NCBI GenBank assembly: GCA_028284905.1
Contig: JANQQU010000093.1
Location: 248,001 to 312,000, forward strand
Direction of reading: 5' to 3'
DNA: 64,000 bases
Origin: Calditrichia bacterium
GTDB taxonomy: Bacteria > Calditrichota > Calditrichia > RBG-13-44-9 > J075
The notes under the pieces were generated by a model that worked only from the letters and a program-made list of their open reading frames with translations, was not told the origin of the DNA and searched no databases. The position numbers and the translations under genes were made by a program. Numbering within the stretch: the first letter of the stretch is position 1; each line of letters opens with the position of its first letter. Positions 35,329 through 52,293 of this stretch are shown in pieces.

Positions 35329-35352
35329 AATTTTGCGATATTTTCTAAGCGT

Positions 35353-36060
35353 CTAAACCGTGTTGGTAATTAGCGCCCGGGTGGCTTCCGGGCCGATATT
35401 CATTAATGCATCGATAACGGAAAGATGGGAGAGAAAATTATCACCGCGTTGCGGGTAGCTGGGATGTGTCCATGTTTGATACTTTAAAGTGATATCAGCA
35501 TCCTGAAAAAGGTGTTCGGACGGCGCCATGTAAACCCGGGCGCCAAGGCTGCTGTAATAATCACTGGCGTCTACCTCCTGGCATATGTTGAGAAGTAGCT
35601 CTGTTTTACGACCGCTAACCGTCAGCTCCGAGGCGCGGATAAACTGTGGTTGCAGTTCCAGTAATTCCGAAAACATTTTAATACCGGCAATGTTTAAATC
35701 TGCCAATTTATCGAAATCAGTATTTAGCCAGCTTTCTACAAAGGGAAAGATTTCCCGAAAATAAGGCGCACGACCGAGGGCATTACTAATATTGGCAAGA
35801 TGCTTTTTCCGCCAGCGCGGCTGATCTTTTGCAATGAGAATATTTTTTATCGCTGTTTTTTGCGGATGGGATTGCACCGGAACGACCATCCAGAATGGAT
35901 CGCCGGCTTGTCCTTTTAAGCGATTACGATTTTGCCATTCCCGTTTGATAAATTGTACCGAATCGAGAAAGACAAAGACATCCGCGCGGACGATCTGTTC
36001 GAAATAACCCAGCCAGGGGAGGTAGTTCGGTTGAGTGATTACGGCCGTTCGGGTTGGCAT
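35353..36060 (-). CDS. WbqC family protein
   Basis: 235 residues. The family signature is clear: TQPNYLPWLGYFEQI, ADVFVFLDSVQFIKREWQNR, WMVVPVQ and a C-terminal YLPQRGDNFLSHLSVIDALM-like segment (here SYPQRGDNFLSHLSVIDALM). WbqC proteins occur in O-antigen and nonulosonic acid loci, but their chemistry is not established; an N-acyl or amino acyl transfer has been considered. It lies between the PseI gene and a methyltransferase gene of the pseudaminate module, where a PseH-type acetyltransferase would be expected. Confidence 0.85.
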   Translation of the reverse strand: MPTRTAVITQPNYLPWLGYFEQIVRADVFVFLDSVQFIKREWQNRNRLKGQAGDPFWMVVPVQSHPQKTAIKNILIAKDQPRWRKKHLANISNALGRAPYFREIFPFVESWLNTDFDKLADLNIAGIKMFSELLELQPQFIRASELTVSGRKTELLLNICQEVDASDYYSSLGARVYMAPSEHLFQDADITLKYQTWTHPSYPQRGDNFLSHLSVIDALMNIGPEATRALITNTV

Positions 36061-36114
36061 TGATATTACATGCTCGCTGGTCTTAATAATGTTTTATCTG
36101 AAATCATAATGCGT

Positions 36115-36783
36115 TCAGGGCATCTGTTTTTTACGAACGGCGATATCGCTTTGAAAGGCGTAAATCGAAAACTCATATGGTAAAACGCCGGGCTTAAGAT
36201 AATAATCATGACGCAGGGTAACGGCAGGGGAGAGGTGCTCTTTACAAAAGCGAAAAACCGCTTCCGGGTCCATGTAATACAAATCTGTTTCCTGGTAATC
36301 GACGTAGCAGGAGATACCGTTAAAAGCGAGGCCTTTCCGAACATGGGGAAAAAGTGTTTGCAGAATCGATGTCATAAATCCCCAGTTATCCGCAATCAGG
36401 TTGTTGAAGGTGCCGCTGATAAAAACATAATCAAAATCTTCCGGAACGCCATCCTGCAGAATATCCCACTGTTGAAAACTGGCTGCCGGGAATTTCTGCG
36501 CTGCAGCGGCAATCATATCCGCAGAAATATCATACCCGGTGTATTCGCCCTGGAAACCAGGTTGCTTCTTGAGAATACTGAGCAGGTGGCCGGTGCCGCA
36601 TCCGAAATCGAGAATTTTTGCCGTGCGAAGGTCGCCAATGGCTGCCAATATTTCCAGCCGTTTTTCCTGGGTGGGCAAATCTCCCCACTGCACGCCTTCC
36701 GGTGTATCGCCGTATTGGCTTAATAGGGCGGAGTAGTGTTTGTCCAGCTGTGCGACCGTCTCTCTATACGGATGCTTGCTCAT
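36115..36783 (-). CDS. Class I SAM-dependent methyltransferase of the nonulosonate module
   Basis: 222 residues from ATG 36783, which forms ATGA with the PseG stop; the longer frame to 36924 lies within the pseG gene. Motif I is ILDFGCGTGHLLSI (57-70), then YDISADMI and DFDYVFISGTFNNL (post-I/II). The tight coupling to pseG suggests it acts on the same sugar series, for example N- or O-methylation. It could instead be a non-methylating SAM-fold enzyme. Confidence 0.75.
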   Translation of the reverse strand: MSKHPYRETVAQLDKHYSALLSQYGDTPEGVQWGDLPTQEKRLEILAAIGDLRTAKILDFGCGTGHLLSILKKQPGFQGEYTGYDISADMIAAAAQKFPAASFQQWDILQDGVPEDFDYVFISGTFNNLIADNWGFMTSILQTLFPHVRKGLAFNGISCYVDYQETDLYYMDPEAVFRFCKEHLSPAVTLRHDYYLKPGVLPYEFSIYAFQSDIAVRKKQMP

Positions 36784-37847
36784 AAAATAGTCCTTCGAAA
36801 TTGCGTTGCCTGAACCGGCAACATGTGCCGGATAACCCGTTCCACGCCATATCCATCGATCAGGTTGCGCCCTTGTTTGCTCATGGAAGTGCGGGTAAAT
36901 CCGCCCGGAAGTTGATCCCGGCACAACGCTTCAATAGCGCTGCTTATATTGGCAACGTCGCAATCGCGATGAAAGCCGTGGTAATATAAAATTCCCCGTT
37001 CATGCAATCGCCGGGCAGTTTCAATCTGATGATCTTCAATGGTTATGATGATGCCGGGAAGCCCCATAAAAGCCATTTCCCAGATAGTGCCTCCCCCGGC
37101 AGTAATCGATACATCGGCCCAGGCCATTAATTCCGGCATGCCTCCGGTGTTTTCAATAATTTCGATCGCGGTGCTACTCGATTGGCTCGCTATCTTCAGG
37201 CTGTCCAAATGAGGATTGCTGCCGCCGGCGATAACAATAACTTCCAGGTCTTTGAGTTGGCTGATTGATAAGGCCTGAATGACTTTTAAAGTGACATTAT
37301 CCGGATCGCTGCCACCCATGGTAACCAGTATACGTTTCGCTCGCGGGGCGATGATTCGTTCCCCTTCCCGCCAGGGCCAAAACTCTTCCCTTAACATCGT
37401 ATATTGACAGCCGAGCAATAATTGGGTGTTATCCTGTTTTTGCTGATAGTAGGTATCACTGGCACTAAGATTTTGATTTAAGACGATATCCGCGAAATAG
37501 GTTTTTGCATGACCAAAATCATCGATGAAAAAGAGCTTCAGACCCGCAGCTTTTATACGTTGCTGATAGTCACCGCTAAAATGATAACCATCGACAATGA
37601 TCCAGTCGTTGCCGGTTTCCTTGGTAATGCGGGCGGTCGCTGCTGCATCGGCGGCGCTGCCAGGGGGCTCGTGGTGATAAAGCACCGTGAACCCTGAGTT
37701 TTGAAGCCGCTCAGCCAATGAAGGGGAAGGCATCGCCATGAGAAAAGTAGCCGTTTCTCCTGCGACTTTTCGTGCCTGAGCGAGGGCCATACAACGCATG
37801 ACGTGCCCGGTACCAATTTCCACTGAAGCATCCGCGCGGATAATCAT
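36780..37847 (-). CDS. pseG: PseG-type UDP-sugar hydrolase
   Basis: 355 residues. The start IIRADASVEIGTGHVMRCMALAQA is diagnostic of PseG (GT-B-like hydrolase releasing 2,4-diacetamido-2,4,6-trideoxy-altrose from UDP). Other conserved parts are VDGYHFSGDYQ, FIDDFGHA, VTMGGSDPDNVT and SITAGGGTIWEMAFMGLP. Some bacteria fuse PseG to the PseH acetyltransferase, but no GNAT motif is seen at either end here. It is separated from the SDR gene by a 537-nt gap that carries two repeat elements, so it may begin a separate transcript. Confidence 0.9.
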   Translation of the reverse strand: MIIRADASVEIGTGHVMRCMALAQARKVAGETATFLMAMPSPSLAERLQNSGFTVLYHHEPPGSAADAAATARITKETGNDWIIVDGYHFSGDYQQRIKAAGLKLFFIDDFGHAKTYFADIVLNQNLSASDTYYQQKQDNTQLLLGCQYTMLREEFWPWREGERIIAPRAKRILVTMGGSDPDNVTLKVIQALSISQLKDLEVIVIAGGSNPHLDSLKIASQSSSTAIEIIENTGGMPELMAWADVSITAGGGTIWEMAFMGLPGIIITIEDHQIETARRLHERGILYYHGFHRDCDVANISSAIEALCRDQLPGGFTRTSMSKQGRNLIDGYGVERVIRHMLPVQATQFRRTIL

Positions 37848-37899
37848 TGAAGATTCCTGTCCATTAAAAATTCGGTCGTGTTGAATTTGTAATATTTTT

Positions 37900-38198
37900 G
37901 GTTCTCTGACATATTTTGTGATTCAGTATTATTTGTAGCACCTCTTGTGTAACCCTTTCAGGGTAAAATCTTTTAGGGGTTTTAACCCTGGGCTGAAAAG
38001 AATGTCAGCCCAGGGTTAAAACCTGTAACCGCTTCGCGGTAAAATACGCCAAAGGCGTTACAGACCTCAACCGTGGGGCGTTGTTCTTTCGCACCCCACG
38101 GTTGGGAGATAACTTTTTACAAACCCTGAAGGGGTTACAGAATTTTTCATCTTAAATTTTGCCAATAAATATATTTTCACAAAATATGTCAGAGAACC
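37900..38198. mobile_element. MITE-like 299-bp element with 21-bp perfect terminal inverted repeats
   Basis: Positions 37900-37920 and 38178-38198 are perfect 21-bp inverted copies. Inside are a 19-bp perfect hairpin (37978-37996 with 38005-38023), an 11-bp hairpin (38068-38078 with 38094-38104), a 41-nt unit bounded by CTGTAAC and GTTACAG (38023-38063), and outer ACCCTTTCAGGGT/ACCCTGAAGGGGT motifs (37952-37964, 38123-38135). There is no coding frame. TATTTTT appears next to the left end and one base off the right end, possibly a target duplication. The structure fits a non-autonomous element or a large palindromic repeat cluster that inserted between pseG and the SDR gene. Confidence 0.65.
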
Positions 38199-38212
38199 TT
38201 ATTTTTAAAAGT

Positions 38213-38324
38213 TGTCATTGCCCCAAAGGGATCCCTACGGGGCGATCCCGGCTGCCGGGAGAAGCAATCTCGGTTGGTGCATCTACAAGGAGATCGCTTC
38301 GTCGCTGTACTCCTCGCGATGACA
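38213..38324. repeat. Dispersed-type palindromic repeat (GTCATTGC...GCGATGAC)
   Basis: About 112 bp bounded by TGTCATTG (38213-38220) and the near-inverted CGATGACA (38317-38324). The right arm reads GAGATCGCTTCGTCGCTGTA followed by CTCCTCGCGATGAC, and the middle carries GATCCCGGCTGCCGGGA-type palindromes. This kind of GTCATTGCGAGGAG element is a common intergenic repeat in many environmental bacteria (established observation, recalled). It lies directly next to the 299-bp element, making this gap a repeat hot spot. The rest of the 37848-38384 gap holds nothing else. Confidence 0.6.
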
Positions 38325-38384
38325 GGTTAAATTACAATCAGCAATATTTCTTTAGCACTACTTCTTTAGCACTACTTTAAATAC

Positions 38385-39164
38385 CTACCAGGCGAGCCAG
38401 CCGCCGTCGACCGATAAGCTGGCGCCCGTAATATAGGATGCTTCCTCTGAGGCAAGAAAGGCAACGCTGCTGGCGACTTCATGCGGTTTCGCCATTCTCC
38501 CCAGCATGGTCTTTCGGTTATAATTGCGGAGGAACTCATTCTCCTGCCGGTCGGAAGCACGGACACCGCCGGAGACGATTGCATTCACCCGAATTCCGCG
38601 ATGGCCCCATTTGCCGGCAAGGAAGCGGATCATGCCCAATCCACCAGCTTTAACCGCTGCGTATTGAATCGGCGTTTGCAACATCCCTTCCGGGTAAATG
38701 GATGGGTCCACCCCGGAGAGGGCGTAAATGGAGGAGAGAAATACGATATTTGCCGATGTTTCCGGAGGCAGCTCGTCCACCATCTTGCGGGCTGCGATAA
38801 AATGACCGGCAACATCAACCTCAAAAAGTTTGTTGAATCCGGCATGTGATAAATCTTCGAAGGTAACGTCTACACCGTCTCGCTGGGAGGCATTGGCAAT
38901 AAGGATTGTCGGTAGTTTTTCCATGCTTTTTAATTGTGCAAAGGCATTGTTAATGCTGTTTTCTTCTTCCAGATTGATTTCCAATGGAATCAGGTTTTCC
39001 TGGTTAATGCCCGTTTGATCTTCAATCCATTGTTGCGCTTTTTCGAGCTGACGGGAGGCGACAATAACCATCGCCCCTTCTGCAGCGAGGCGATGGACTA
39101 CTGCGCCGCCAATTAAACCGGTGGCCCCGGTAACCATGGCAATTTTGCCGGATAAACCTCTCAC
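38385..39164 (-). CDS. Short-chain dehydrogenase/reductase
   Basis: 259 residues. Cofactor loop MVTGATGLIGGAVVH (10-24), catalytic Ser in FLSSIYALSG and the Y-x3-K pair in YAAVKAGGLG; the C-terminus ASYITGASLSVDGGW is typical of classical SDRs. The start is GTG at 39164, with a strong GGAGG 6 nt upstream inside the end of the previous gene (2-nt gap), so it is co-translated with the cytidylyltransferase genes. In nonulosonate loci such reductases modify the sugar or its side chain; the substrate is unknown. Confidence 0.85.
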   Translation of the reverse strand: MRGLSGKIAMVTGATGLIGGAVVHRLAAEGAMVIVASRQLEKAQQWIEDQTGINQENLIPLEINLEEENSINNAFAQLKSMEKLPTILIANASQRDGVDVTFEDLSHAGFNKLFEVDVAGHFIAARKMVDELPPETSANIVFLSSIYALSGVDPSIYPEGMLQTPIQYAAVKAGGLGMIRFLAGKWGHRGIRVNAIVSGGVRASDRQENEFLRNYNRKTMLGRMAKPHEVASSVAFLASEEASYITGASLSVDGGWLAW

Positions 39165-39165
39165 T

Positions 39166-39864
39166 TTAATTCCTCCGTAATAAAAATTCGCATAAATCCA
39201 GTTCGAAATTTGTCGCCACGTGGACAGATCGTTCTTCCGGGGTTTCTACCATGCCGAGCCGTTCTCCGAAAAAGTGATCGATTTCCCGCACCGCTTCAAA
39301 CTTGCCGATTTTAATCGAGCCGTTTGGGCGAAAGACGGGGGGCAACAGGGGACGTTCCATAATATATTTTTCACCAAAATACATCTCCCAATACCCTTTT
39401 TCATTCGTATGCAATGCCCAGTGAAAATAGTGGGGATCGACCGGCGTTACGCTTACGACGAAGTCCACATCATCTTCCTGGTAGACGGACATCCCCTGGC
39501 GAATATCTTCGGCGGAACGTAAAGGTGAGGTAGGCTGTAAACAAACCAGTGTCTCGATTGGTTGCCCCTTGTTAATTAAATATTCCGCCAAATGCTGGCA
39601 GGGAACATTAGAGCCGACAAGATCGCCACATAAATCTTCCGGCATTAAATATGGAACCTGAGCGCCATAAGAAACGGCGATCTCGGCAATTTCTGCGCTA
39701 TTGGTGCAAACATAAACGTCTTCGAATAGTTCACTCCGCAGCGCTGCTTCAATTGAATAAGCGATCATCGGTTTGCCGGCGACCGGCATGATGTTTTTCC
39801 CCGGTAATCGCTTGCTTCCTGCTCTTGCAGGAATTGCGCAAAGCGTTTTTTCAGCGTAAGCCAT
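39166..39864 (-). CDS. CMP-nonulosonic acid synthetase-like cytidylyltransferase (second copy)
   Basis: 232 residues. CAIPARAGSKRLPGKNIMPV is the nucleotide-binding motif of the NeuA/PseF/KdsB group, followed by KPMIAYSIEAAL, CLQPTSPLRSAEDI and VSVTPVDPHYFHWAL. The reaction is CTP plus sugar acid to CMP-sugar. It overlaps the PseF-like gene by 14 nt. Two adjacent synthetases imply either two sugar acids or one enzyme that has taken another substrate; it is less close to PseF in its middle section (YGAQVPYLMPEDL). Confidence 0.8.
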   Translation of the reverse strand: MAYAEKTLCAIPARAGSKRLPGKNIMPVAGKPMIAYSIEAALRSELFEDVYVCTNSAEIAEIAVSYGAQVPYLMPEDLCGDLVGSNVPCQHLAEYLINKGQPIETLVCLQPTSPLRSAEDIRQGMSVYQEDDVDFVVSVTPVDPHYFHWALHTNEKGYWEMYFGEKYIMERPLLPPVFRPNGSIKIGKFEAVREIDHFFGERLGMVETPEERSVHVATNFELDLCEFLLRRN

Positions 39865-40621
39865 TGGTACCCTCTTTTCTAAATGGAGAAATGTTGATTG
39901 ATTCTAGTGGAGAGTAACCATCCCTATCCTGTAAACCCCTTACCAGAATCTCAGCTAATTCCAGATCCTGGTTGTCATCAATATCCAAACCGCGGTTGGC
40001 ATCCATTGGTGCAATGTGGAATGCGTCTCCGTAGTAGGACTTGTGCTGCCGTAAATCCTCGGCACGTGCCCACCAGATGGCGCCGGTAGGGCAGTAAGTT
40101 GTGCCAATGTCATGGCTATCCAGTAAATTCTCTTCACCAAATATCCATTGACCATACCCTTGTTGATCCGCAGTCATTGCCCAATGCGGGTAAAGACCAC
40201 GGTATTCTATTGCTGCAATTTGAAATTTGCGTTGGTTGTCTCGAAACAATTGATAATGATCGACAATATCTTCGCTGCGTTTGAGGGGACAATTAGGCAT
40301 CAGCTGGCAGATCGCATCTACTTTCAAACCTTCATCTGCCAGTGTGTCGAGCACATGAAAAGCGACATCTTCCAGACTGGCCTGGTCGGTAGCGAAAGCT
40401 GGCGGGCGCGGAAAAAACTCGGCCCCATACCATTCGGCGATTTCGCCGGTGAGCGGATCATCGCTGGAAACAATAATCCTTTCGAATAAATTGCTGTTTT
40501 TCGCAGCAACAATACTGTAAGCAAGCATCGGATGCCCAAAGAAGGGCAAAATATTCTTACCTGGTACCCGTTTTGAACCTCCACGGGCGGGGATCAGTGC
40601 AATCAGTTTTTCATTTGCCAT
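39851..40621 (-). CDS. pseF: CMP-pseudaminic acid synthetase-like cytidylyltransferase
   Basis: 256 residues. ALIPARGGSKRVPGKNILPF, HPMLAYSIVAAKNSNLFERI, SSDDPLTGEIAEWYGAEFFPRP and CQLMPNCPLKRSEDI match PseF. It activates the nonulosonic acid with CTP for the glycosyltransferase. It overlaps the aldo/keto reductase gene by 19 nt upstream and the second cytidylyltransferase by 14 nt downstream, placing it firmly in the pseudaminate sub-operon. Confidence 0.85.
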   Translation of the reverse strand: MANEKLIALIPARGGSKRVPGKNILPFFGHPMLAYSIVAAKNSNLFERIIVSSDDPLTGEIAEWYGAEFFPRPPAFATDQASLEDVAFHVLDTLADEGLKVDAICQLMPNCPLKRSEDIVDHYQLFRDNQRKFQIAAIEYRGLYPHWAMTADQQGYGQWIFGEENLLDSHDIGTTYCPTGAIWWARAEDLRQHKSYYGDAFHIAPMDANRGLDIDDNQDLELAEILVRGLQDRDGYSPLESINISPFRKEGTNGLR

Positions 40622-41544
40622 AATGCCGGATTTAATAGTGTGGTGGAAGCATTATTTAATTGTAATTCCACGAATTCACAGTCTTTGGTGGAGAGCGCAG
40701 GTCGCTGAAAAAGCGCTATGTTTTCTTTCATTTGTGCTGGCGTTTCAATGCCAATGACGATACTGTCTATCCAGTCTTGTGCCCGAACGTAGGCAAAACA
40801 AAGATCCTGGCGGTTTTGACGATTGAGTTGGCTGCTTACCATATTTAAGCGCCGGTGCCAGCTGGCGGCATCGATATTTTTTAAACGAGCCATTATCGGC
40901 AGATCGGTTACTAAAAATCCCTGTAGCAGAACACTACGGGCATGAATGATGATATCTTTTCTTTCCCGGGCCATCGTTGGAATACCGGCTTGCTGCCAAC
41001 GCCAGTCCAGCAAATTGAAAGGCAGCTGAATATGGCCGATAGTGTTATCTTGTAAAGCGCTTATTGCTTCGTCCGGGGTGTAAACCGAAACGCCCAAAGT
41101 CTTAATCTTGCCGTCATCCTGCAATTGGCGAAGGGTTTTCCAGATTATGCCATTGAAGGCCGAACGGTGTTCCCAGCGATGAAGCAGTAAAGTATCGATA
41201 GCACTTTGCTGCAATTCTTTGCAGGATGTTTCAACACTTGCTTGCACCCGGTCAGCAACATCTTTTTGTGCCGATTCCGGGGTTAAATCATCCAGCGGGT
41301 CCAGCTTGGTGATCACAGTGATTTCGGTTTCCCCAACTTCTTGTAGCGCATTTCCGATCCGTCGCTCAGCCTCGCCATATGCCCGAGCAGTATCGAATGT
41401 AGTTATCCCGGACTCGATAGCCTGTTTTAATAAAAATGTCGCGGCAGTGTCGTCCGGTTTACCGGTCTGATTGGCTAGCCCATATGTCAGACCCAACTGA
41501 ACTGTGCCAAGTGTGAACAATTGTTGCTGCTTACTAGCTGTCAT
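40603..41544 (-). CDS. Aldo/keto reductase
   Basis: 313 residues. The TIM-barrel tetrad is visible: Asp and Tyr in TFDTARAYGEAE, Lys in VITKLDP and His in LLLHRWEH; the C-terminal SIVIGIETPAQMKEN is the cofactor 2'-phosphate/GxxT region. Aldo/keto reductases are regular companions of pseB-pseC-pseF in polysaccharide and flagellin glycosylation loci (family context), but their step is not settled. Lies 31 nt after pseC. Confidence 0.85.
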   Translation of the reverse strand: MTASKQQQLFTLGTVQLGLTYGLANQTGKPDDTAATFLLKQAIESGITTFDTARAYGEAERRIGNALQEVGETEITVITKLDPLDDLTPESAQKDVADRVQASVETSCKELQQSAIDTLLLHRWEHRSAFNGIIWKTLRQLQDDGKIKTLGVSVYTPDEAISALQDNTIGHIQLPFNLLDWRWQQAGIPTMARERKDIIIHARSVLLQGFLVTDLPIMARLKNIDAASWHRRLNMVSSQLNRQNRQDLCFAYVRAQDWIDSIVIGIETPAQMKENIALFQRPALSTKDCEFVELQLNNASTTLLNPALWQMKN

Positions 41545-41575
41545 TAATTTCGAAGTTTTCTCAAACTTTTATAAT

Positions 41576-42766
41576 TCACTTTGTTGAGTCAATTTTTGCA
41601 CCACTTAAAATCGTTTTCAATGTCTCTGCAATCCGTTGCTGATCGGCATCCGTTAACCCGTAAAACAATGGTATACTAATCGCTTCCTGATAATAAGATT
41701 CGGCCTGGGGATAATCACCCATCTGAAATCCCAATTGCTGGTAATAGGGTTGGGTATGCACCGGAATGTAATGCAGATTGACACCAATGCTCGCCGCACG
41801 CAGCGCTTCAAACACTTCCCGGTGGGATTTACCGCTTGCTGCTTCATCGACCCTGATGATATACAGGTGCCAGCTGGAGTTCGTATCCGGATGTTGCGCC
41901 GGTAATGTTAACGGTAATTCCTTGAGGAGGTGATTGTATTGTGCTGCTAATCTGCGTCTGCGGGCGATAAACGCATCCAATCGCTGCATTTGACTGACTC
42001 CCAACGCTGCCTGAATATCGGTAATTCTGTAATTATATCCAAGTTCTAGTTGTTGATAATACCAGGGGCCATGGCTTTCTCCCTGCATTACGGATTTATC
42101 TCTGGTGATGCCGTGGGTGCGAAGCCGAATGAGCTTATCATAAATATCTTTCCGGTTTGTTAATATCATGCCCCCTTCACCGGTGGTCACTATTTTTACC
42201 GGATGAAAACTGAAAACAGCCATATCAGAAAATTCACAGTTGCCCACTTTTTTGCCATTATAACAGGCGCCAATAGCGTGGGAAGCATCTTCCAGAATGG
42301 TAAATTTATATCTCTCTGCCAACTCGGCTATCGCTGCCATTTCGCAGGATTGCCCGGCGAGATGTACCGGCACAACCACTTTCGGGGGTTTATTTGCTTT
42401 CTCTGCGATTGCCAGTTTCTCGGCTAATGCGGCAATGGAAAGATTATAAGTTGCCGGGTCAATATCAATAAAATCTACCTGGGCGCCACAATAGCGGCCG
42501 CAATTGGCGGATGCGACGAAGGTAATCGGAGAAGTCCAGAGAATGTCTTCCGATCCCAAACCCGCAGCCAGGCAGCTGATGTGCAGTGCCGCCGTTGCGT
42601 TGGATACTGCCACAGCATATTTGGCGCCGCAATATTCCGCCACTGTTTGCTCAAAGCGGCTGATTGTTGGGCCCTGGGTAATCCAGTCCGATTTTAGAAC
42701 ATTAATAACGGCATCGATATCTTCTTGTTGAATATCTTGTTTGCCATAAGGGATATAAGGTAGCAT
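41576..42766 (-). CDS. pseC: PseC-type UDP-4-amino sugar aminotransferase
   Basis: 396 residues. Start PYIPYGKQDIQQEDIDAVI and DWITQGPTISRFE are characteristic of PseC. PLP-binding: D160 in ILEDASHAIG and K191 in FHPVKIVTTGEGGM. It converts the 4-keto product of PseB to UDP-4-amino-4,6-dideoxy-N-acetyl-altrosamine with glutamate as donor. The gene lies 31 nt downstream of pseB, in the order usual for these pathways. Confidence 0.92.
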   Translation of the reverse strand: MLPYIPYGKQDIQQEDIDAVINVLKSDWITQGPTISRFEQTVAEYCGAKYAVAVSNATAALHISCLAAGLGSEDILWTSPITFVASANCGRYCGAQVDFIDIDPATYNLSIAALAEKLAIAEKANKPPKVVVPVHLAGQSCEMAAIAELAERYKFTILEDASHAIGACYNGKKVGNCEFSDMAVFSFHPVKIVTTGEGGMILTNRKDIYDKLIRLRTHGITRDKSVMQGESHGPWYYQQLELGYNYRITDIQAALGVSQMQRLDAFIARRRRLAAQYNHLLKELPLTLPAQHPDTNSSWHLYIIRVDEAASGKSHREVFEALRAASIGVNLHYIPVHTQPYYQQLGFQMGDYPQAESYYQEAISIPLFYGLTDADQQRIAETLKTILSGAKIDSTK

Positions 42767-42797
42767 TTATGATCTCCGAAACTATCAACACTGATAG

Positions 42798-43781
42798 CTA
42801 TGCAGGCTCTTCTTCGTGAACTAATTTTTTCAAATCATCGATAGACAACCATTGTTCATTGGCATCACTCGTATAGCGGAAACCATCCGGCAAAGGGCGA
42901 GCGCCTTCAATTTCTTTACTTTCCCACCAGGGGTGAATTGGTTGGATGATGAACATGTCATCAATCTCCAGAGTATGATGGGATTCACTTGCAGAGAGCA
43001 GGTCTTCATGAAGTTTCTCTCCAGGGCGAATGCCAATTGTCTTTACCGTCGACTTCGGGGCGATTGCTTTTGCCAGGTCCATAATATTCATACTGGGAAT
43101 TTTCGGCACAAAGACCTCACCGCCCTGCATTAATTCAATCGACCGAATAACAAAGCGAACCCCTTGCTGCAATGTTAACCAAAAGCGTGTCATTCGGGGA
43201 TCAGTTACAGTAATATGGCCATTTTGCTTCTGCTTAAAGAAAAGGGGAATAACACTGCCCCGGCTGCCGACAACATTGCCATAACGTACCGAGCTAAAAC
43301 GAATGTCATTTTCGCCACTATAGGAATTCGCCTGAACAAATAGTTTCTCGGCAACCAATTTCGTCGCGCCATACAAATTGACCGGGTTGACGGATTTATC
43401 GGTACTCAAGGCTAATACCCGTTTAACACCGTTATCCAGCGCGGCATCAATAACATTCCTGCCACCCATAATATTGGTCATGATCGCTTCGAAGGGATTA
43501 TATTCGCAAGCCGGTACTTGCTTCAATGCGGCCGCATGAACGACTACGTCTACGCCTTGCATTGCCCGGCGAAGGCGATCGACATCGCGAACATCACCGA
43601 TGAAAAATCGTAGATTCGGATGATCAAACCCTCCAACGCGCATTTCATGCTGTTTCAGTTCGTCCCTGCTAAAAATAATGACTTTTTTCGGTTGATATTC
43701 TCTTAGTAGCGTTTTTGCAAACATTTTTCCAAATGAGCCGGTACCTCCGGTTATCAGCACCGATGATGATTGCCAATCCAT
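42798..43781 (-). CDS. pseB: PseB-type UDP-GlcNAc 4,6-dehydratase (inverting)
   Basis: 327 residues. NAD-binding ITGGTGSFGKMFAKTL (10-25); catalytic D128 and K129 in LSTDKS, Y137 and K141 in LYGATK. The segment VIIFSRDELKQHEM is specific for the PseB/FlaA1 group. It is the soluble short form without membrane helices. It opens the nonulosonate module and follows the ABC transporter genes after 80 nt. Confidence 0.93.
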   Translation of the reverse strand: MDWQSSSVLITGGTGSFGKMFAKTLLREYQPKKVIIFSRDELKQHEMRVGGFDHPNLRFFIGDVRDVDRLRRAMQGVDVVVHAAALKQVPACEYNPFEAIMTNIMGGRNVIDAALDNGVKRVLALSTDKSVNPVNLYGATKLVAEKLFVQANSYSGENDIRFSSVRYGNVVGSRGSVIPLFFKQKQNGHITVTDPRMTRFWLTLQQGVRFVIRSIELMQGGEVFVPKIPSMNIMDLAKAIAPKSTVKTIGIRPGEKLHEDLLSASESHHTLEIDDMFIIQPIHPWWESKEIEGARPLPDGFRYTSDANEQWLSIDDLKKLVHEEEPA

Positions 43782-43861: not shown

Positions 43862-45166
43862 TTACTTTCCTTTCAAGGACCAGTGACTGGGGCTATAAAC
43901 CTCGGTATTCTGGGAATAATATTTGAAGTTTGCCTCTCCCTGGGCAATCTGTGCTTCCATAACGGAAAATTGAAGCACTTCATGGACAATATCATCATAA
44001 GATCTTTTTCTGGTATGTTTTACCCAGACATCGACCAGATATTCTCCAGGATATAATTGAATGGCCGGAATTTCGATCTCGATGATCTGACGCCCTTTTT
44101 CAGTGATAATCTGAAAACCTTCCCACTTTGAAATAAAATAATGAAGCCAGACACGTTGCAGATTGCTGATGCCTACGCCGATTTCCAGGAATTCGTCCGG
44201 TTTTTTAAAATCGATTTCCAGGCGGAATATTGCCGGGGCACCCATGCGAAGCATGTCGGTGGAAGTATGGGTTTCATCCATTAATCGAACGCTTTGGATA
44301 AAAGAATGCTCTTGTGGCCCTTTGCGTTCCTCGATACGTTCACTTAGGTCGGCAAAACCGCCGGTTATAGCCAGATTCCGTGAGATGTATTTAGAGATTG
44401 TATCCTGAATCGATCCCTGGAAAGTAATTTGCCCCTCTTCCAAAAAGATGCCCCGTTGACAGAGAGATTCAATGGCTCCCATGTTATGACTGACAAATAA
44501 AACGGTTCTGCCTTCGTTCGCAACGCCCTGCATCTTTCCCAGGCACTTATTTTGGAAGGAGACATCTCCGACCGCCAACACTTCATCGACAATCAAAATT
44601 TCCGGTTCGAGATGCGCTGCGACTGCAAAAGCTAATCGGATATACATACCACTGGAATAATATTTGATTGGGGTATCAATGAACTTTTCCAGTTCGGAGA
44701 AGTTGACTATTTCGTCAAACTTATCTTTAATCTCCGAGCGCTTCATCCCCAAAATAGAGCCGTTTAGGTAGACATTTTCCCGACCGGTCAATTCAGGATG
44801 AAAACCGGTACCGACTTCGAGCAAGGAGCCTACTCTTCCAATAATCCGGGCGCTGCCGGTGGTTGGTTCGGTAATGCGGGAGAGCACTTTCAGCAAGGTG
44901 CTTTTACCGGCACCGTTCCGGCCGAGAATACCGACAACTTCCCCCTGTTTTACCTGAAAAGTAATATCCTTTAATGACCAAATTTCCTGGTTCATGCCAG
45001 CAGCACCGGAAGCATGCCCTTTTAATAATTGTCCCATTTTTCGAAAAGGAGACATCAGGGTGTTTTGGAGGGTTTCGCCAAAAGTTTTATACTTCGCTTT
45101 TCTCTGTTGAGAACCAATGAAGTATCGTTTCCCCAGACCTTGGGCATCTATTACGACTTTACTCAT
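43862..45166 (-). CDS. wzt: Polysaccharide ABC transporter ATP-binding subunit with C-terminal glycan-binding domain (Wzt)
   Basis: 434 residues. Walker A GRNGAGKST (82-90), signature YYSSGMYIRLAFAVA, Walker B EILIVDEVLAVGD and the H-loop VSHN. The ~170-residue C-terminal extension (from about 265) is a beta-rich Wzt_C-like domain (for example LEIDFKKPDEFLEIGVGIS), which in O9a-type systems recognises the capped end of the glycan. It pairs with the permease gene 9 nt upstream. It suggests export of a finished, probably end-modified polymer across the inner membrane. Confidence 0.92.
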   Translation of the reverse strand: MSKVVIDAQGLGKRYFIGSQQRKAKYKTFGETLQNTLMSPFRKMGQLLKGHASGAAGMNQEIWSLKDITFQVKQGEVVGILGRNGAGKSTLLKVLSRITEPTTGSARIIGRVGSLLEVGTGFHPELTGRENVYLNGSILGMKRSEIKDKFDEIVNFSELEKFIDTPIKYYSSGMYIRLAFAVAAHLEPEILIVDEVLAVGDVSFQNKCLGKMQGVANEGRTVLFVSHNMGAIESLCQRGIFLEEGQITFQGSIQDTISKYISRNLAITGGFADLSERIEERKGPQEHSFIQSVRLMDETHTSTDMLRMGAPAIFRLEIDFKKPDEFLEIGVGISNLQRVWLHYFISKWEGFQIITEKGRQIIEIEIPAIQLYPGEYLVDVWVKHTRKRSYDDIVHEVLQFSVMEAQIAQGEANFKYYSQNTEVYSPSHWSLKGK

Positions 45167-45175
45167 TCAAGCTCC

Positions 45176-46066
45176 TTATACAACGTCTGCAAAGGTTTTT
45201 TCCAGACGGCGAAAATAAAATGCACCACTGATCAGTAAGAGAACCGAAACTGTCGCAGATATAAAAATCATTTTTCCCGGGGCGGTATTGGTCCCCAGCA
45301 AGGCCCAACGAAAACCTTCAACGACGCCAGCCATGGGATTTAGGCTGTATACCGTGCGCCAGGGTTCATCCAGCATGCTGCTGGGGTAAGCAATCGGCGA
45401 GATAAACATCCAGAATTGGGTGAGAAACGGAATGGTATAGCGAATATCGCGGAACTGAACATTCATCGCTGTTAACCACAGACCCGTTCCTAGGGAGGTT
45501 ATAAATGCGAGCAGAATTAAAAAGGGAAGCCAAATCACATTAATTGTTGGCGTTATACCGGTGACGACCAGCATGATAAGTAAAACTATAAACGCCAGGA
45601 AGAAATCTACAGCGCCGGATAACACTTTCGCGATTGGAATTGTTAATCGCGGAAAATAAATTTTCTTGATGAGATTCGCATTGCTTACCAGGCTGTTGGA
45701 CGATTGCGCTAATCCACTCGCAAAGAAAGTCCAGGGAACTAACGCCGCATAGCTGAAGATCGGATAGGGGATGCCATCCGAAGGAATGCCGGCCAGTTTC
45801 CCAAAAAACAAGCTGAATACTATCATGGTAAAAAAAGGTTGAATAACCGCCCAACTAGCCCCTAAAACCGTTTGCTTGTAGCGAACTTTTATGTCCCGCC
45901 AAACAAAGAAATATAAGAGCTCCCGATACTCCCAAATTTCGTTCAGTTTAAGTGATGCCCAACCGCGGGTAGGGGTAATCAGAATTTCCGGAACGGGTGT
46001 ATCTGCTAAGTGCTTCCCATTGGAAGAACTTGTCATTTTATCAACTGTTTGATCCAGCGGATTCAT
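45176..46066 (-). CDS. wzm: Polysaccharide ABC transporter permease (Wzm, ABC-2 type)
   Basis: 296 residues with a cytoplasmic N-terminus (ILITPTRGWASLKLNEIWEYREL) and about six membrane helices. VRYKQTVLGASWAVIQPFFTMIVFSLFFG is the hallmark of the ABC-2 O-antigen/teichoic acid permeases, with WLTAMNVQFRDIRY and MFISPIAYP further on. It forms the channel with the Wzt subunit. ATG start at 46066, 40 nt after the sugar transferase gene. Confidence 0.92.
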   Translation of the reverse strand: MNPLDQTVDKMTSSSNGKHLADTPVPEILITPTRGWASLKLNEIWEYRELLYFFVWRDIKVRYKQTVLGASWAVIQPFFTMIVFSLFFGKLAGIPSDGIPYPIFSYAALVPWTFFASGLAQSSNSLVSNANLIKKIYFPRLTIPIAKVLSGAVDFFLAFIVLLIMLVVTGITPTINVIWLPFLILLAFITSLGTGLWLTAMNVQFRDIRYTIPFLTQFWMFISPIAYPSSMLDEPWRTVYSLNPMAGVVEGFRWALLGTNTAPGKMIFISATVSVLLLISGAFYFRRLEKTFADVV

Positions 46067-46105: not shown

Positions 46106-47488
46106 TTATAACTCCATCGTCATTCTCAGGCCATTTCCCGCTGATTTGACCTCTGTTGAATATATGGTGGATACGAAATGATATTTGATGTTTAAATTTT
46201 TACAGATATCGAGTAATTGGCTGAGGTCGCCGTTCGCTTGTTTTTCTGTCGCAATATAAACGGCCTCAATATCATGCACATTTTTTAATAAGGGTAAATC
46301 GATGGCGGTACCGAGCACACTAAAGCCATGTATTTTTTTCCCACGCATATGATCATGATGATCCAGAAAACCAACGGGTTCAACCCTTGGTCCCAGATTA
46401 GCGAGAATTCGCCGGGCAAATAATTCCCCTTCCATATTGGCACCGTAAATCAAAATATTTTCCTGAGCAGTGCTATGGTGTTTGAACCGCGATCTTTTAA
46501 AACGTGAGGAAATCATTCGAAAACATACCAGGAAGCTGGCGGTAAAAATCGCATTCAGAAGAATAATAGAGATTGACATCCAGGGAATCTGGAAAAACAT
46601 TATTGTCATTGTAGATAAAGCAGCAGCAAGTGTGATCGACTTCATAATGGCGATTAAGTCCCGGGTGCCAAAATATTTCCATAGGTGTAAATAAATACTA
46701 AAAAAGATATAACATACCACTTGCCAAAAACTGATGATTATGAAAAGAACCCCAATTTCAGTAATGTCAATAGCAGCTGGTTGAAAGTCATTTTTAACCA
46801 GTAATGCAAAGAAAAATGCGATCATGGATAGGGATATATCAATGAGTAGCTTCGATATCTCCCGCTTCCGCCGAATAAGGTGAATTAGCTTCATTGGCTC
46901 AAAAACCGTAACCAAGAAGGCGTGTGTGAAGTATTTCAGATCTTTAATGAACGACTGTGTTTCCGCATACTTGATATCTCGTTCCAGTTTTTGAGGAAGA
47001 ATTTCTTTTATATAGTAGGCTTCAACGTCCTCAACATCTGCCGGTATCAAATTCTTTTCGTTTCGCCAGATAATTTGATTTGGGCCGACCAGACCGGGCT
47101 TTACCGAAAGGACTTTTCGTTCTCTCTCCGAATAAAGCTCTACAATTTCCGGGATTTCCGGGCGTGGCCCCACAAAGCTCATTTCCCCTTTGAAAATATT
47201 GATTAACTGGGGAATTTCATCCAGCTTCAGTCGTTCGATTACTTTACCGACTTTAGTTAAACGGAGATCATGTTTCGGGCTGATTTTCGGGCCGGAATCA
47301 ATTTTATGAGGCATCTTCCGGAATTTATACATCCAGAAAGTTGATCCATCGATACCAACTCTTAAATGCTTGAAAAAAGCTGGACCGGGAGATTCTACTT
47401 TGATGAGAAGACTTAATAATCCCATAACAGGAGATGCAAATATCAATCCCAGAAAGGCTAGTGTTCTATCAAAAATTTCTTTTAACAT
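46106..47488 (-). CDS. Phosphoglycosyl transferase with permuted domains (sugar transferase first, then 4-helix + Rossmann module)
   Basis: 460 residues from ATG 47488; a GTG at 47527 would add 13. Neither start has a strong ribosome-binding site. Numbering from the GTG: residues ~14-225 are the bacterial sugar transferase domain (re-entrant helix DRTLAFLGLIFASPVMGLL, FRKMP, KLDEIPQLINIFKGEMSFVG, PRPE at 121-124). Then come four helices (~226-245, 257-279, 293-313, 316-336) with HLWKYFGTRDLIAI and a Rossmann domain (ENILIYGANMEGELFARRIL, GFLDHHDHMRGKKIHG, VLGT) that in WcaJ/WbaP-type enzymes stands before the catalytic domain. It should start glycan synthesis by transferring a sugar-1-phosphate to undecaprenyl phosphate. 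Confidence 0.85.
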   Translation of the reverse strand: MLKEIFDRTLAFLGLIFASPVMGLLSLLIKVESPGPAFFKHLRVGIDGSTFWMYKFRKMPHKIDSGPKISPKHDLRLTKVGKVIERLKLDEIPQLINIFKGEMSFVGPRPEIPEIVELYSERERKVLSVKPGLVGPNQIIWRNEKNLIPADVEDVEAYYIKEILPQKLERDIKYAETQSFIKDLKYFTHAFLVTVFEPMKLIHLIRRKREISKLLIDISLSMIAFFFALLVKNDFQPAAIDITEIGVLFIIISFWQVVCYIFFSIYLHLWKYFGTRDLIAIMKSITLAAALSTMTIMFFQIPWMSISIILLNAIFTASFLVCFRMISSRFKRSRFKHHSTAQENILIYGANMEGELFARRILANLGPRVEPVGFLDHHDHMRGKKIHGFSVLGTAIDLPLLKNVHDIEAVYIATEKQANGDLSQLLDICKNLNIKYHFVSTIYSTEVKSAGNGLRMTMEL

Positions 47489-47587
47489 TTTCAAGGCTTT
47501 GAAGTTTAAGTGAAACAATCGAATCACAGTCTATAGACAATAGTTGCCTTTATAAACTTCTGCTTTACTTTAGTTTATAGAGGGGAG

Positions 47588-47658: not shown

Positions 47659-48819
47659 TCAAGCGATATCTACTTTCAGAGAATACAAGCTTGCTTCCAG
47701 CGTATTGCAGACTTTTTCGACATCCTCGGTAGACATCAATGGATGCATTGGCAGTGTTAATTCGCGCAAGCAAACGGCTTCCGTCAGGGGAATCGAGTCG
47801 GTGGATAACTCTGGATTATCCTGATAATTTTGGAATTTATGAATCGGCGGGTAGTGAATGCTGGATTGAATACCTTGTTCCCGCATCGCACTCATCACTG
47901 CCTGGCGGTCTGTGCCTGCCGGTAAAAGGATCGGCATAATATGACAGGCACTTTCGCCGGGATGATTATCGAATGGGACAACAATACCGGATATTTTAGA
48001 AAGCGATTGCCGGTAGTGGCGTGTTAATTCGTTCCTTTTTTGATTGTTCCGCGGGAGCTTTTCAAGCTGGGTGATGCCTAACGCGGAGCGAATCTCATCG
48101 ATACGATAATTAAAACCGAGGTCAGTAACATCATAGCTAAAGGCATGGCCCTGGTGACGTTGCCATGTTAGGGTTGTCATGCCATGAGAACGACCAAGGC
48201 GAATTTTATCGGCCAATTCATCATCGTTCGTTACTAGCATGCCACCTTCACCAGTGGCGATGTTTTTGTTGGAGAAAAAACTAAAGCAGCCAATATCGCC
48301 AATCGCACCACAGCTTTCGCCATTGTAACTGCTGCCAACAGCATGGCAGGCATCTTCAATAATTGCCAGATTATGATCTGCCGCGATCTTCTTTATTGCT
48401 GACATATCGCAAGGATAACCACCATAATGCATGACGGTAATCGCCCGGGTGCGCGGTGTTATTTTTTCCAGGATCGATTGGGGGGATATCGTTAGATTAT
48501 TTTCACTGATAATGTCTGCAAATACCGGTTTCCCGCCGCAATATCGAACTGCATTGGCGGTGGCAACGAAGGTTAGCGAGGGGCAGATAACTTCATCTCC
48601 CTCACCTATACCCAATGCCCAGTTTGCCAGATGCAATGCTGCAGTACCATTGGTAACCGCAATTGCATGCCTGGCGTTGCAGAATTCAGCAAACGCTTTT
48701 TCGAATTTTTGAGTCACAGCTCCCTGTGTAAACCAACCGGATTGGATAACTTCCAGAACCGCATCAATTTCTTCCTGCCCGAGATCTATCTCAGACAGCG
48801 TAAGTTCCCACTTCGTCAA
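47659..48819 (-). CDS. DegT/DnrJ/EryC1 sugar aminotransferase
   Basis: 386 residues. The start is taken as TTG at 48819 because AGGAGG lies 8 nt upstream and the protein then begins KWELTLSEIDLGQEEIDAVL as family members do; the longer frame to 48873 overlaps the nucleotidyltransferase gene by 83 nt. PLP lysine K185 in SNKNIATGEGGM; cofactor Asp in IIEDACHAVG. It aminates a 4-keto-6-deoxy sugar, most likely the product of the dehydratase at 49604. Its gene overlaps the nucleotidyltransferase gene by 29 nt. Confidence 0.9.
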   Translation of the reverse strand: MTKWELTLSEIDLGQEEIDAVLEVIQSGWFTQGAVTQKFEKAFAEFCNARHAIAVTNGTAALHLANWALGIGEGDEVICPSLTFVATANAVRYCGGKPVFADIISENNLTISPQSILEKITPRTRAITVMHYGGYPCDMSAIKKIAADHNLAIIEDACHAVGSSYNGESCGAIGDIGCFSFFSNKNIATGEGGMLVTNDDELADKIRLGRSHGMTTLTWQRHQGHAFSYDVTDLGFNYRIDEIRSALGITQLEKLPRNNQKRNELTRHYRQSLSKISGIVVPFDNHPGESACHIMPILLPAGTDRQAVMSAMREQGIQSSIHYPPIHKFQNYQDNPELSTDSIPLTEAVCLRELTLPMHPLMSTEDVEKVCNTLEASLYSLKVDIA

Positions 48820-49519
48820 TGTGCAATCCTCCTCTGATTTTTTGAAATTCCTCCTGAACTCTCTCATAGTCAAGATGTTGCCCGATATCCTGCCAGTATC
48901 CCTTGAAATCGTAACCGAGCACTTTCTTGTTTTTACTGATGAGATGATTGATAAGATCGGGAAAATCGACCTGCTGGTTTTCTGGTAAATAATCCAGTAC
49001 CTGCCGGTTGATGATATAAATGCCCATATTGATATTGACTTCGGAATAGGGCTTTTCCCGAAATGCCGTTAAGCGGGAATTCTCGTCCGTATCGATAACA
49101 CCATAATCAATTCTTTCGCGTTTTTTATAGACACTGAGTGTAATCGCAGCATTTTCCTCGATATGGAAATTCATTAGCGTTTTATAGTTTAAATCAGTCA
49201 GTATATCCGCGTTCATTACCAGAACATTTTCTTTTAAATTGGGAATCAGTTTCAATGGCGCGACAGTTCCCAACGGACGTTTTTCAAAGGAATACTCTAT
49301 TTCGATGCCATATTTTTCCCCTTTGCCAAGATAAGACTGGATGAGCTCTCCCAGGTATCCAGTAGCAATTGAAACCTTGGTGAAACCAAGAAAAGACAAC
49401 TGTTTAACGAGAATCTCGATGATGGGCATCTCGCCAACAGGCAATAGTGGTTTCGGTATTATTGATGTGTACGGCTGTAACCTTACTCCCTTGCCTCCTG
49501 CCATGATAATAGCTTGCAT
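48791..49519 (-). CDS. Sugar-1-phosphate nucleotidyltransferase
   Basis: 242 residues. AIIMAGGKGVRLQPYT (3-18) and PKPLLPVGEMPIIE form the nucleotide-binding signature; VMNADIL carries the catalytic metal-binding Asp and YWQDIG ends the core. It is the short RmlA/GlmU-N-like type without a C-terminal acyltransferase, similar in size to PtmE/hexose-1-phosphate guanylyltransferases. With the LegB-like dehydratase and aminotransferase on either side it may supply the NDP-sugar for a 4-amino sugar (inference). Confidence 0.88.
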   Translation of the reverse strand: MQAIIMAGGKGVRLQPYTSIIPKPLLPVGEMPIIEILVKQLSFLGFTKVSIATGYLGELIQSYLGKGEKYGIEIEYSFEKRPLGTVAPLKLIPNLKENVLVMNADILTDLNYKTLMNFHIEENAAITLSVYKKRERIDYGVIDTDENSRLTAFREKPYSEVNINMGIYIINRQVLDYLPENQQVDFPDLINHLISKNKKVLGYDFKGYWQDIGQHLDYERVQEEFQKIRGGLHIDEVGTYAV

Positions 49520-49603: not shown

Positions 49604-50596
49604 TTAAATGACATATTTAGACGTTTGGTGATCAGCAAAAATTTGTTCCCGGGACCATTCAATTGTTTTTGCCAATCCTTCTTCCAGAGATACTGCCGGC
49701 TCCCAGCCTAATAGCGTTTTTGCTTTTTGGCAATCGCAGTTCAGGCGATTCACCTCACTGCCGCTGGGGCGCATGCGAACAGCTTCCTGGCTGATAGGAA
49801 TATGACGGTCCATTATGTTCATGATGATATCGCAAAGTTCCTGGATGGAAACTTCCCGGCCGCTGCCAAAATTAATGACTTCTCCGATTGCTTTTTCAGA
49901 ACTGGCCATCGCCAGAAAGGCTGAAACAGTATTTGCGATAAAGTTGAAATCGCGGGTTGGATATAAAGCGCCCAGGCGAATTTCATCATTCTTTAATACT
50001 TGGGTAATGATGGTCGGAATTACTGCCCGCATGGACTGCCGTGGGCCGAAAGTATTAAATGGGCGGACAACCGATACATTCATATCGAATGCATGTTTGT
50101 AACTCAATGCCATCCTGTCCGCGCTAATTTTACTGGCTGCATAGGGCGATTTCCCGGAAATCGGATGTTTTTCATCCATTGGGGCATAGTGCATATTGCC
50201 ATATACTTCGCTGGTGGAAGTGTGGATCAGTCTATCCACATTGTCTTTCAGGCAGGCGTTAAGAACGTTCGCGGTGCCGGCAACATTTGTCTGTACATAA
50301 TCCATTGGATTAACATAGGAGTAGGGGATCGCGATCAAGGCGCCAAGGTGAAAAACAATGTCCCGTCCCTTAACAGCACTCCGAACAGCGTCAGGGTCTT
50401 TTAAATCGCCGCTATAAATCTCGATATTTTTCCGAATTTCCTGAGGAAAAGTATCAATATAGCCTGCCTGATTTCTGGAATTATATCTTACAAAAGCCCG
50501 GACATCCGCGCCTAGTCGAACCAGGGTCTCCGTAAGATGACTGCCAATAAATCCTCCCGCTCCGGTTACCAGTACTTTTCTGCTTTGCCAATCCAT
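49604..50596 (-). CDS. LegB-like NAD-dependent 4,6-dehydratase (extended SDR)
   Basis: 330 residues. NAD loop VTGAGGFIGSHLTE (10-23), then VRAFVRYNSRNQAG, which is typical of the LegB/retaining NDP-GlcNAc 4,6-dehydratase group; TSTSEVYG (126-133), catalytic Y152 and K156 in SPYAASKIS, and PFNTFGPRQSMRAVIPTIITQ. It makes a 4-keto-6-deoxy NDP-sugar. The following two genes (nucleotidyltransferase, aminotransferase) complete a short amino-sugar route. Which nucleotide is used (UDP or GDP) cannot be told. Confidence 0.85.
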   Translation of the reverse strand: MDWQSRKVLVTGAGGFIGSHLTETLVRLGADVRAFVRYNSRNQAGYIDTFPQEIRKNIEIYSGDLKDPDAVRSAVKGRDIVFHLGALIAIPYSYVNPMDYVQTNVAGTANVLNACLKDNVDRLIHTSTSEVYGNMHYAPMDEKHPISGKSPYAASKISADRMALSYKHAFDMNVSVVRPFNTFGPRQSMRAVIPTIITQVLKNDEIRLGALYPTRDFNFIANTVSAFLAMASSEKAIGEVINFGSGREVSIQELCDIIMNIMDRHIPISQEAVRMRPSGSEVNRLNCDCQKAKTLLGWEPAVSLEEGLAKTIEWSREQIFADHQTSKYVI

Positions 50597-50688: not shown

Positions 50689-52293
50689 CTAATCTGACTT
50701 CTCTTCCGGAGAACTTTCCTGGTTCCCTTTATCATCATAGACTTTTTTGGTATGGCCGCTGCCATTACGTTGATTATTATCATTCTCTGCGTAAGTTTCC
50801 GGCAATCCATGTAAAATCAATTCGATATTTTTGATAGATGTTGATCTGCCGCCATTTGTGGTATCATATGGTGATCTATTTCTACCAGCATACAGCGGGG
50901 TTTTTAGATTTTCTCTCAGGAAAAGAATTATGAAGCCTAAAGCGCTGCCGAGGAATATAGCCAGAATAGTATTAAACCCTTTTCGGGGAGAGACAGGGCT
51001 TCGGGTTTCTATGGCAAAATCGAGGATTCGAATATTGCCTATTTCAGCTGCTTCTCTTAGCCGAACCTGCTCTCTTTCTTCCAAAAGCTGCACAAACAAT
51101 TTATTGTTTATATCCCTTTCCCGTAATAAACGGAAGTGATCTGCTTCCCGTCGAATCAACGTGGATAAACGCTGATTGTAGCTTGCCAATATTTTCTGAA
51201 GATATTCGTTCTGGGTTTTTAAAGCCTTTAGCTCCGTATCAAGACGAATCGACTCCGTTAAAAGCGTTTGTGCTTGCACCAGGGGATCGATAACACCACT
51301 AAGCGAATCACTGGTAAAGAGTTTTTTAGTTGTGTTAATGATATCTCGCTTCATGCTTTCGACTTCTGCAATCAACGTTGCCACTTTCGGGTGATCATCT
51401 TTATAGCCCTGGGCCTTCAAGTCCATCAATTGAACATTTTGTTCACTTAATTTCGTTCGCAAATTGTTGATTGTTAAGCTGGTCGCCTGAGTTAGTGTGC
51501 CAGTGCTGTCTGATTGAAATTTACCAAGGTGTCTTCTTATCTCCCGAAGCCGCTTTTCATTTGCTTCAATGTCCACCTGAACTGTATTGAGCAGATTCTC
51601 AACACTAGTGATTCGGTTGAGGATTTCCCGGGACTCATCTTCCATGGAAGAGACATTTGTGTTAACTTTGAAGTCCTGAAATGCATCTTCAGCTTCTGTC
51701 AATTTCCCTTGCAATGAATTGAGCTGCTCATCGATAAAAGCCCTTAGATTGGAGTACTCTTTGTTACGTGCCTGCAGGTTGCTTTTCAGAAGCACTTTCG
51801 CTGCGATGTTCGCTATAACATGAGTAATTTCAGGAACTTCAGATTGGAAGGTAATTGTAATTACATTTGGCAACTTATCCGAATTAAAAGCGGAAACACC
51901 AGCGCGAATCTTGCCCACAATATATCGATCCTTATCGAAATTTTCCGGCTGCGGGTCAGGAAAAGTAAATTTATTCCGAATATCAGATGACAATTCTTGG
52001 TAGACCCGCTCTGCAAACAATTGTGTTTGGATTTCTTTCACACGGTTAAGGACATAGCGATGAGAGATAATTCCCTCTTCGATATTTAACATTTCATTCT
52101 GACTGGCAATTTCGAAAGCAACAACAGAAGAGGCCTTATAAAGGGGCGTTGCCATATAGTTATAAATACTAACGATGATTAATGATAACCCAATACAGGA
52201 AAGAAGTATCAATTTGCCTTGATATACTTTCTGTAATAATTCCGCCAGCGTAACAAAATTATTATCCGGATTATCAAAATTTTCTGAGTTCAT
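50689..52293 (-). CDS. Polysaccharide co-polymerase / chain-length regulator (Wzz/GumC family)
   Basis: 534 residues. TM1 at ~27-46 and TM2 at ~440-461 flank a large periplasmic part with long coiled coils (for example SLQGKLTEAEDAFQDFK, EANEKRLREIRRHLGKF). The segment SPVSPRKG just before TM2 is the Pro-rich motif of the family. The cytoplasmic tail of ~70 residues is polar and acidic and has no Walker motifs, so this is not a full tyrosine autokinase. First gene of the polysaccharide block; AGGGATC precedes the ATG at 52293. It controls chain length and bridges to an outer-membrane exporter, which is not in the window. Confidence 0.88.
   Translation of the reverse strand: MNSENFDNPDNNFVTLAELLQKVYQGKLILLSCIGLSLIIVSIYNYMATPLYKASSVVAFEIASQNEMLNIEEGIISHRYVLNRVKEIQTQLFAERVYQELSSDIRNKFTFPDPQPENFDKDRYIVGKIRAGVSAFNSDKLPNVITITFQSEVPEITHVIANIAAKVLLKSNLQARNKEYSNLRAFIDEQLNSLQGKLTEAEDAFQDFKVNTNVSSMEDESREILNRITSVENLLNTVQVDIEANEKRLREIRRHLGKFQSDSTGTLTQATSLTINNLRTKLSEQNVQLMDLKAQGYKDDHPKVATLIAEVESMKRDIINTTKKLFTSDSLSGVIDPLVQAQTLLTESIRLDTELKALKTQNEYLQKILASYNQRLSTLIRREADHFRLLRERDINNKLFVQLLEEREQVRLREAAEIGNIRILDFAIETRSPVSPRKGFNTILAIFLGSALGFIILFLRENLKTPLYAGRNRSPYDTTNGGRSTSIKNIELILHGLPETYAENDNNQRNGSGHTKKVYDDKGNQESSPEEKSD

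Follow-up and report, generated by a model that had tools for sequence, protein, structure and literature searches.

Large monotopic phosphoglycosyl transferases (PGTs) are defined by accessory domains that lie N-terminal to the catalytic core (PMC10942596, eLife 2024), and Bi-PGTs by a core with a fused domain, which may be at either end (PMC10942596). WbaP-type PGTs share a membrane-Rossmann module with PglF-type dehydratases, an overlap that has been termed puzzling (PMC10942596, 2024). Within the monotopic superfamily, the aspartate of the catalytic dyad is the nucleophile, and an Asp-Glu dyad has been stated for all members (PMC10519829 and the PglC work cited there). Here, we describe a protein in which the four-helix and Rossmann parts stand behind the PGT core, encoded in a 64,000-nucleotide stretch of contig JANQQU010000093.1 from a Calditrichia bacterium; we refer to this whole stretch as the window. 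Our main reading, to which we assign a probability of roughly two in three, is that this protein is a PglC-type PGT with a C-terminal module of the CapD/PglF kind, from which the dehydratase domain has been lost, and that it primes the glycan of its locus.

The gene at 46106-47488 on the reverse strand is one uninterrupted frame of 460 aa when read from its ATG, or 473 aa from a GTG at 47527. The original prediction had described a single continuous frame with its catalytic domain in front and a four-helix plus Rossmann module behind; domain search, structure prediction and structure comparison all agree with this, and every motif that it cited was found in the protein. In Pfam, Bac_transf (PF02397) covers residues 3-194 (E 9.9e-49, 165.7 bits against a cut-off of 27) and CoA_binding_3 (PF13727) covers residues 281-437 (E 5.9e-8, above its cut-off), while the Polysacc_synt_2 dehydratase domain (PF02719) is absent from the protein. 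The C-terminal half alone also matches positions 1-229 of TIGR03025 (1.9e-21), so that Rossmann and four-helix similarity is indeed detected in this half by profile search. Numbered on the 460-aa protein, the catalytic half contains a reentrant helix at position 2-32, a D90-E91 dyad within KLDEIPQ and a PRPE motif at 108-111, and it thereby carries both the dyad and the PRP motif (P108-R109-P110) that characterize the monotopic PGT superfamily. The Rossmann motif reads GANMEG rather than GxGxxG. An AF2 model, built from 17 aligned rows (mean pLDDT 78.5), showed a long helix at 2-32, the PGT core, a set of four helices (210-231, 242-262, 275-299 and 306-336) and a Rossmann fold at 343-440; its pTM of 0.49 is low, so that the way the halves are positioned against each other in the model is unreliable. 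Foldseek matched the first half to PglC (E 1.6e-12), which is the best solved structure for the catalytic half by sequence as well as by fold, and the second half to the Rossmann domain 3nkl (E 5e-5). The protein does carry its domains in reversed order.

Features of the PGT fusion and the neighboring genes in the window
Feature	Coordinates	Strand	Evidence
Catalytic domain, small monotopic PGT type, residues 1-200	46889..47488	-	PF02397; PglC match; small-PGT clade
Four predicted transmembrane helices, residues 205-340	46469..46876	-	AF2 model; alignment to CapD/PglF N-terminal modules
Rossmann domain, residues 341-440, motifs GANMEG and GFLD	46169..46468	-	PF13727; Foldseek 3nkl; CapD-type by HMM contrast
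LegB-like NAD-dependent NDP-sugar 4,6-dehydratase	49604..50596	-	TIGR04180 442 bits, just under the 475 cut-off; 49% identical to L049
Sugar-1-phosphate nucleotidyltransferase	48791..49519	-	PF00483 3e-46; 41% identical to L049
DegT-family sugar aminotransferase	47659..48873	-	PF01041 2e-125; 49% identical to L049 cassette gene
Wzm-like permease	45176-46066	-	Directly downstream of the fusion; Pfam (PF01061, PF00005, PF14524 for the Wzm/Wzt pair)
Wzt-like ATPase with Wzt_C domain	43862-45166	-	Pfam (PF01061, PF00005, PF14524 for the Wzm/Wzt pair)

Homologs with the same order were then collected, as the original prediction had proposed. Scanning 84,980 species genomes with exact short patterns, an approach that reaches close relatives only, returned one collinear homolog, L049, from a Syntrophobacteraceae MAG; this gene, also designated L191, matches the window protein at 30% over residues 1-440. 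With these two proteins as queries, more proteins of the same order were found in the class (L177) and the phylum (L180-L188) of the Syntrophobacteraceae record. Searching with a 12-row alignment yielded L231 and L233-L243 through an Anaerolineae record (Chloroflexota), L213 through a Brocadiaceae record (Planctomycetota) and L230 through an Alteromonas record (Pseudomonadota), where the phylum names refer to the records that led to these proteins. In the phylum of a Chitinophagaceae record, 0 of 345 sampled genomes matched at 1e-75, in a search run without a positive control. The reversed-order set that we analyzed (n = 26) comprises the window protein and 25 further proteins from several phyla, 11 of which align with it end to end. 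A literature search on the two Pfam names together found no paper.

To place the catalytic domain, we built trees of PGT cores. One of them, with 126 catalytic domains, grouped the initial 12 reversed-order proteins in one clade (98/93), nested in a small-PGT clade (100/98) that contained no large PGTs. In an 80-row tree, all 26 reversed-order proteins, five full fusions of PGT and CapD (described below) and 20 small PGTs formed one clade (100/99), with all 18 large PGTs of the set outside it. Forcing the window catalytic domain out of the small-PGT clade was rejected by the AU test (p 0.02); holding the large PGTs as one clade gave p 3e-5, a value that also carries the cost of making the large PGTs a single clade. 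The catalytic domain is a member of the small-PGT clade. The full-length protein scores below the cut-offs of both TIGR03025 (260 against 296) and TIGR03023 (221 against 411), and its matches to these models fall into two stretches in swapped order.

The rear module was compared with those of CapD dehydratases and large PGTs. In module trees of 63 and 85 rows, the rear modules group with those of CapD (99/98 and 98/97, respectively), and in the larger tree all 25 usable reversed-order modules and the five full fusions lie apart from the WcaJ/WbaP modules (98/97). We also scored each module with a model built from CapD modules and a model built from large-PGT modules, using cross-validated controls. 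All 30 fused modules preferred the CapD model, by +27 to +80 bits. The CapD controls scored +47 to +135 and the large-PGT controls -255 to +19, a clean separation save for one of the 28 large PGTs, at +19. At +31 bits, the window module is above every large-PGT control and under the CapD controls; it is of the CapD type by this score and by the 85-row tree, though an AU test did not reject a basal position on the WcaJ/WbaP side (p 0.51). The window's own module is divergent, and rear modules show long branches in the module tree. The assignment of the rear module to the CapD/PglF dehydratase type is nevertheless well supported by trees and profile scores.

Present-day loci contain states from which an origin for this arrangement may be read. 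Near sister small PGTs, separate genes occur in the order aminotransferase (DegT), PGT, CapD (L192, L207 and L130; L193 with a gap). Full fusions of 815-870 aa join the PGT and CapD parts: L189 is an 818-aa PGT-TM-Rossmann-dehydratase protein with PF02397, PF13727 and PF02719, whose gene directly follows that of an aminotransferase; L215, L227 and L229 resemble it, and L228 lies in a longer frame. The window-type proteins have only the first two parts, PGT and TM-Rossmann, without the dehydratase domain; downstream of the window fusion, where the gene for the Wzm-like permease comes next on the same strand, no leftover dehydratase fragment was found. We infer that neighboring aminotransferase, small PGT and CapD genes would have given rise to a PGT-CapD fusion, which would then have lost its dehydratase domain, the lost step passing to a separate soluble dehydratase. 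A neighboring sugar-dehydratase gene is the most likely source of the rear module. The full fusion nearest the window clade joined it at 88/74 only. As to a single origin, the reversed-order proteins formed one clade with 12 members and were scattered over about three places in the tree with 26; fusion followed by loss may therefore have occurred more than once.

Several other explanations were weighed against this reading. That an assembly artefact joined two genes, an option that the original prediction had itself named, is refuted by the recurrence of the same order in 25 independent proteins, 11 of them collinear with the window protein over its full length; this excludes a local assembly error and leaves the idea a negligible probability. 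The original prediction had further read the protein as a WcaJ/WbaP-type enzyme with its parts rearranged, and of this reading the reversed order stands while the kinship does not. A circular permutation, in which the front TM-Rossmann module of a large PGT moved behind the core, is compatible with the AU placement of the window's module taken alone, and the C-terminal half does match the WcaJ/EPS_sugtrans models. This match is not diagnostic, however, because true CapD N-terminal modules match the WcaJ-type model equally well or better (84-107 bits, against 77 for the window module). The core, moreover, nests among small PGTs, apart from the large ones, in both trees and by both AU tests on the catalytic domain, and adjacent as well as fully fused PGT-CapD states exist. 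We therefore rejected a permuted WcaJ on the HMM contrast, the matches of CapD modules to WcaJ models and the AU tests, and consider it very unlikely. A weightier alternative, if still an unlikely one, accepts the loss of the dehydratase domain and holds that the module is a leftover, a passive tether behind what acts as an ordinary small PGT. The fast divergence of the module, with its long branches, would fit this, as would the GxGxxG motif, which is intact in just 14 of 25 rear modules. Yet the module is preserved over its length in all 26 proteins, across several phyla and apparently in more than one lineage, even though the dehydratase domain is gone.

The remaining alternatives concern the catalytic dyad, which reads NE instead of DE in 16 of the 26 reversed-order proteins: all 12 from the Chloroflexota search (L231, L233-L243), and L180, L181, L183 and L191. 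This change occurs in none of the 31 small and 18 large PGTs of the set, its distribution requires three changes on the tree, and in 15 of the 16 NE proteins a nucleotidyltransferase gene lies next door. Having Asn in place of Asp, this lineage apparently departs from the rule of an Asp-Glu dyad in all members (PMC10519829). As a separate observation, the dyad is Asp-Asn in one of the five full PGT-CapD fusions; we guess this to be L227:4244-6688, from its long branch. Asparagine at the nucleophile position in so many relatives might suggest that the window protein, too, is no longer a PGT and serves as a regulator or scaffold. It retains D90-E91 along with the family's invariant residues, however, and no other PGT, mono- or polytopic, was found on its contig, which makes such a role highly improbable. 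More tentatively, the fusions may form a separate priming class, in which the module that dehydratases and large PGTs share is a movable unit for nucleotide sensing and dimerization, able to act in front of the core or behind it, and the NE members have a mechanism different from the known covalent ping-pong, or another job; we regard this as doubtful, while giving it some weight.

Returning to the main reading, the genes around the fusion suggest which sugar it would use. From 50596 to 46106, the order is LegB-like dehydratase, nucleotidyltransferase, DegT aminotransferase and PGT fusion. The same four-gene cassette occurs in L191 and L181; the order fusion, LegB, nucleotidyltransferase, DegT is found in nine loci of the Chloroflexota search (L234, L236-L243), and L233 and L235 have the first three of these genes (fusion, LegB, nucleotidyltransferase) within the stretch taken. 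The LegB and aminotransferase NCBIfam scores are below curated cut-offs. From family knowledge, we take it that the three cassette enzymes would make an NDP-4-amino-4,6-dideoxysugar. The PGT domain would transfer the sugar-1-phosphate, via a covalent Asp90 intermediate, to undecaprenyl phosphate, and the primed glycan would then be exported by the adjacent Wzm/Wzt pair (43862..46066), which is likely the exporter for the locus glycan. The fusion thus probably primes this glycan, a surface sugar chain, with a 4-amino-4,6-dideoxysugar, both sugar and nucleotide being putative. The locus also holds a separate pseudaminic-acid-type set at 34273-43781 (PseB, PseC, an aldo-keto reductase, two cytidylyltransferases, a Glyco_tran_28_C protein and NeuB), which makes it more likely that the four-gene cassette serves the primer sugar. 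The Wzm/Wzt exporter (43862-46066) and a Wzz/GNVR chain-length protein (50689-52293) lie in one locus, although they mark two distinct export routes.

The original prediction had supposed that the reversed order may create a different membrane topology. This is not needed: considering the even number of transmembrane helices and the basic flanks of the bundle (RRKR before, RFKRSRFKHH after), core and Rossmann domain would both be cytosolic, as in WbaP. Altered regulation of chain initiation, also proposed, is possible. The rear module would serve as the membrane anchor of a probably dimeric enzyme and, as a reasoned guess by analogy, may sense nucleotide. WbaP dimerizes through its Rossmann-type domain, which has also been linked to the binding of uridine nucleotides, and UMP inhibits with an apparent IC50 of 4.1 uM (PMC10942596), and for EpsZ of Myxococcus a response regulator has been modelled as acting on dimerization (PMC12802240).

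Other rearrangements of these parts were seen along the way. Single frames of ~845 aa in L007 (G000 contig C7, 20754-24302), L150 and L130:3862-6378 each encode a WecA-like polytopic PGT joined to a 4TM-Rossmann module and a monotopic core; the Asp-Glu dyad of these cores is lost (IYKFPQ), and they are possibly relic cores on an active WecA. In L008 (G000 contig C7), one frame runs from a family-2-like glycosyltransferase through a 4TM-Rossmann module to a degraded PGT core, and L130:6453-8342 carries a related module in the same position. Many PGTs of 320-370 aa in the window's class (such as L004, L018, L020, L024, L032, L037, L039-L042, L044-L046 and L048) have a Rossmann domain in front without a TM bundle, a second shortened variant.

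Compared with described systems, the window protein shares the catalytic domain, reentrant helix, Asp-Glu dyad and PRP motif of the small monotopic PGT PglC of Campylobacter, but whereas PglC and small PGTs by definition consist of the catalytic core alone, it has 260 extra residues, with the 4TM-Rossmann module behind. With the large PGTs WbaP and WcaJ it has in common the three types of part (four TM helices, a PF13727 Rossmann domain and a PGT core); in contrast to them, helices and Rossmann domain both follow the core, the core comes from the other PGT clade, and the module is nearer to CapD. Its rear module is of the type found at the N-terminus of the membrane NDP-sugar 4,6-dehydratases CapD and PglF, but it lacks their dehydratase domain and has a PGT in front. 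Like a Bi-PGT, it is a PGT core with a fused part, but that part has no recognizable catalytic domain, and the Bi-PGT class fits only the full fusions L189, L215, L227 and L229. PGT and CapD neighbors, full fusion and module-only fusion form a natural series, which suggests a second route by which the module came to a PGT, where it persisted without its first enzyme. The role of the module thereby becomes testable, by comparing proteins that carry it in front of the core, as WbaP does, behind it, as here, or not at all, as in PglC.
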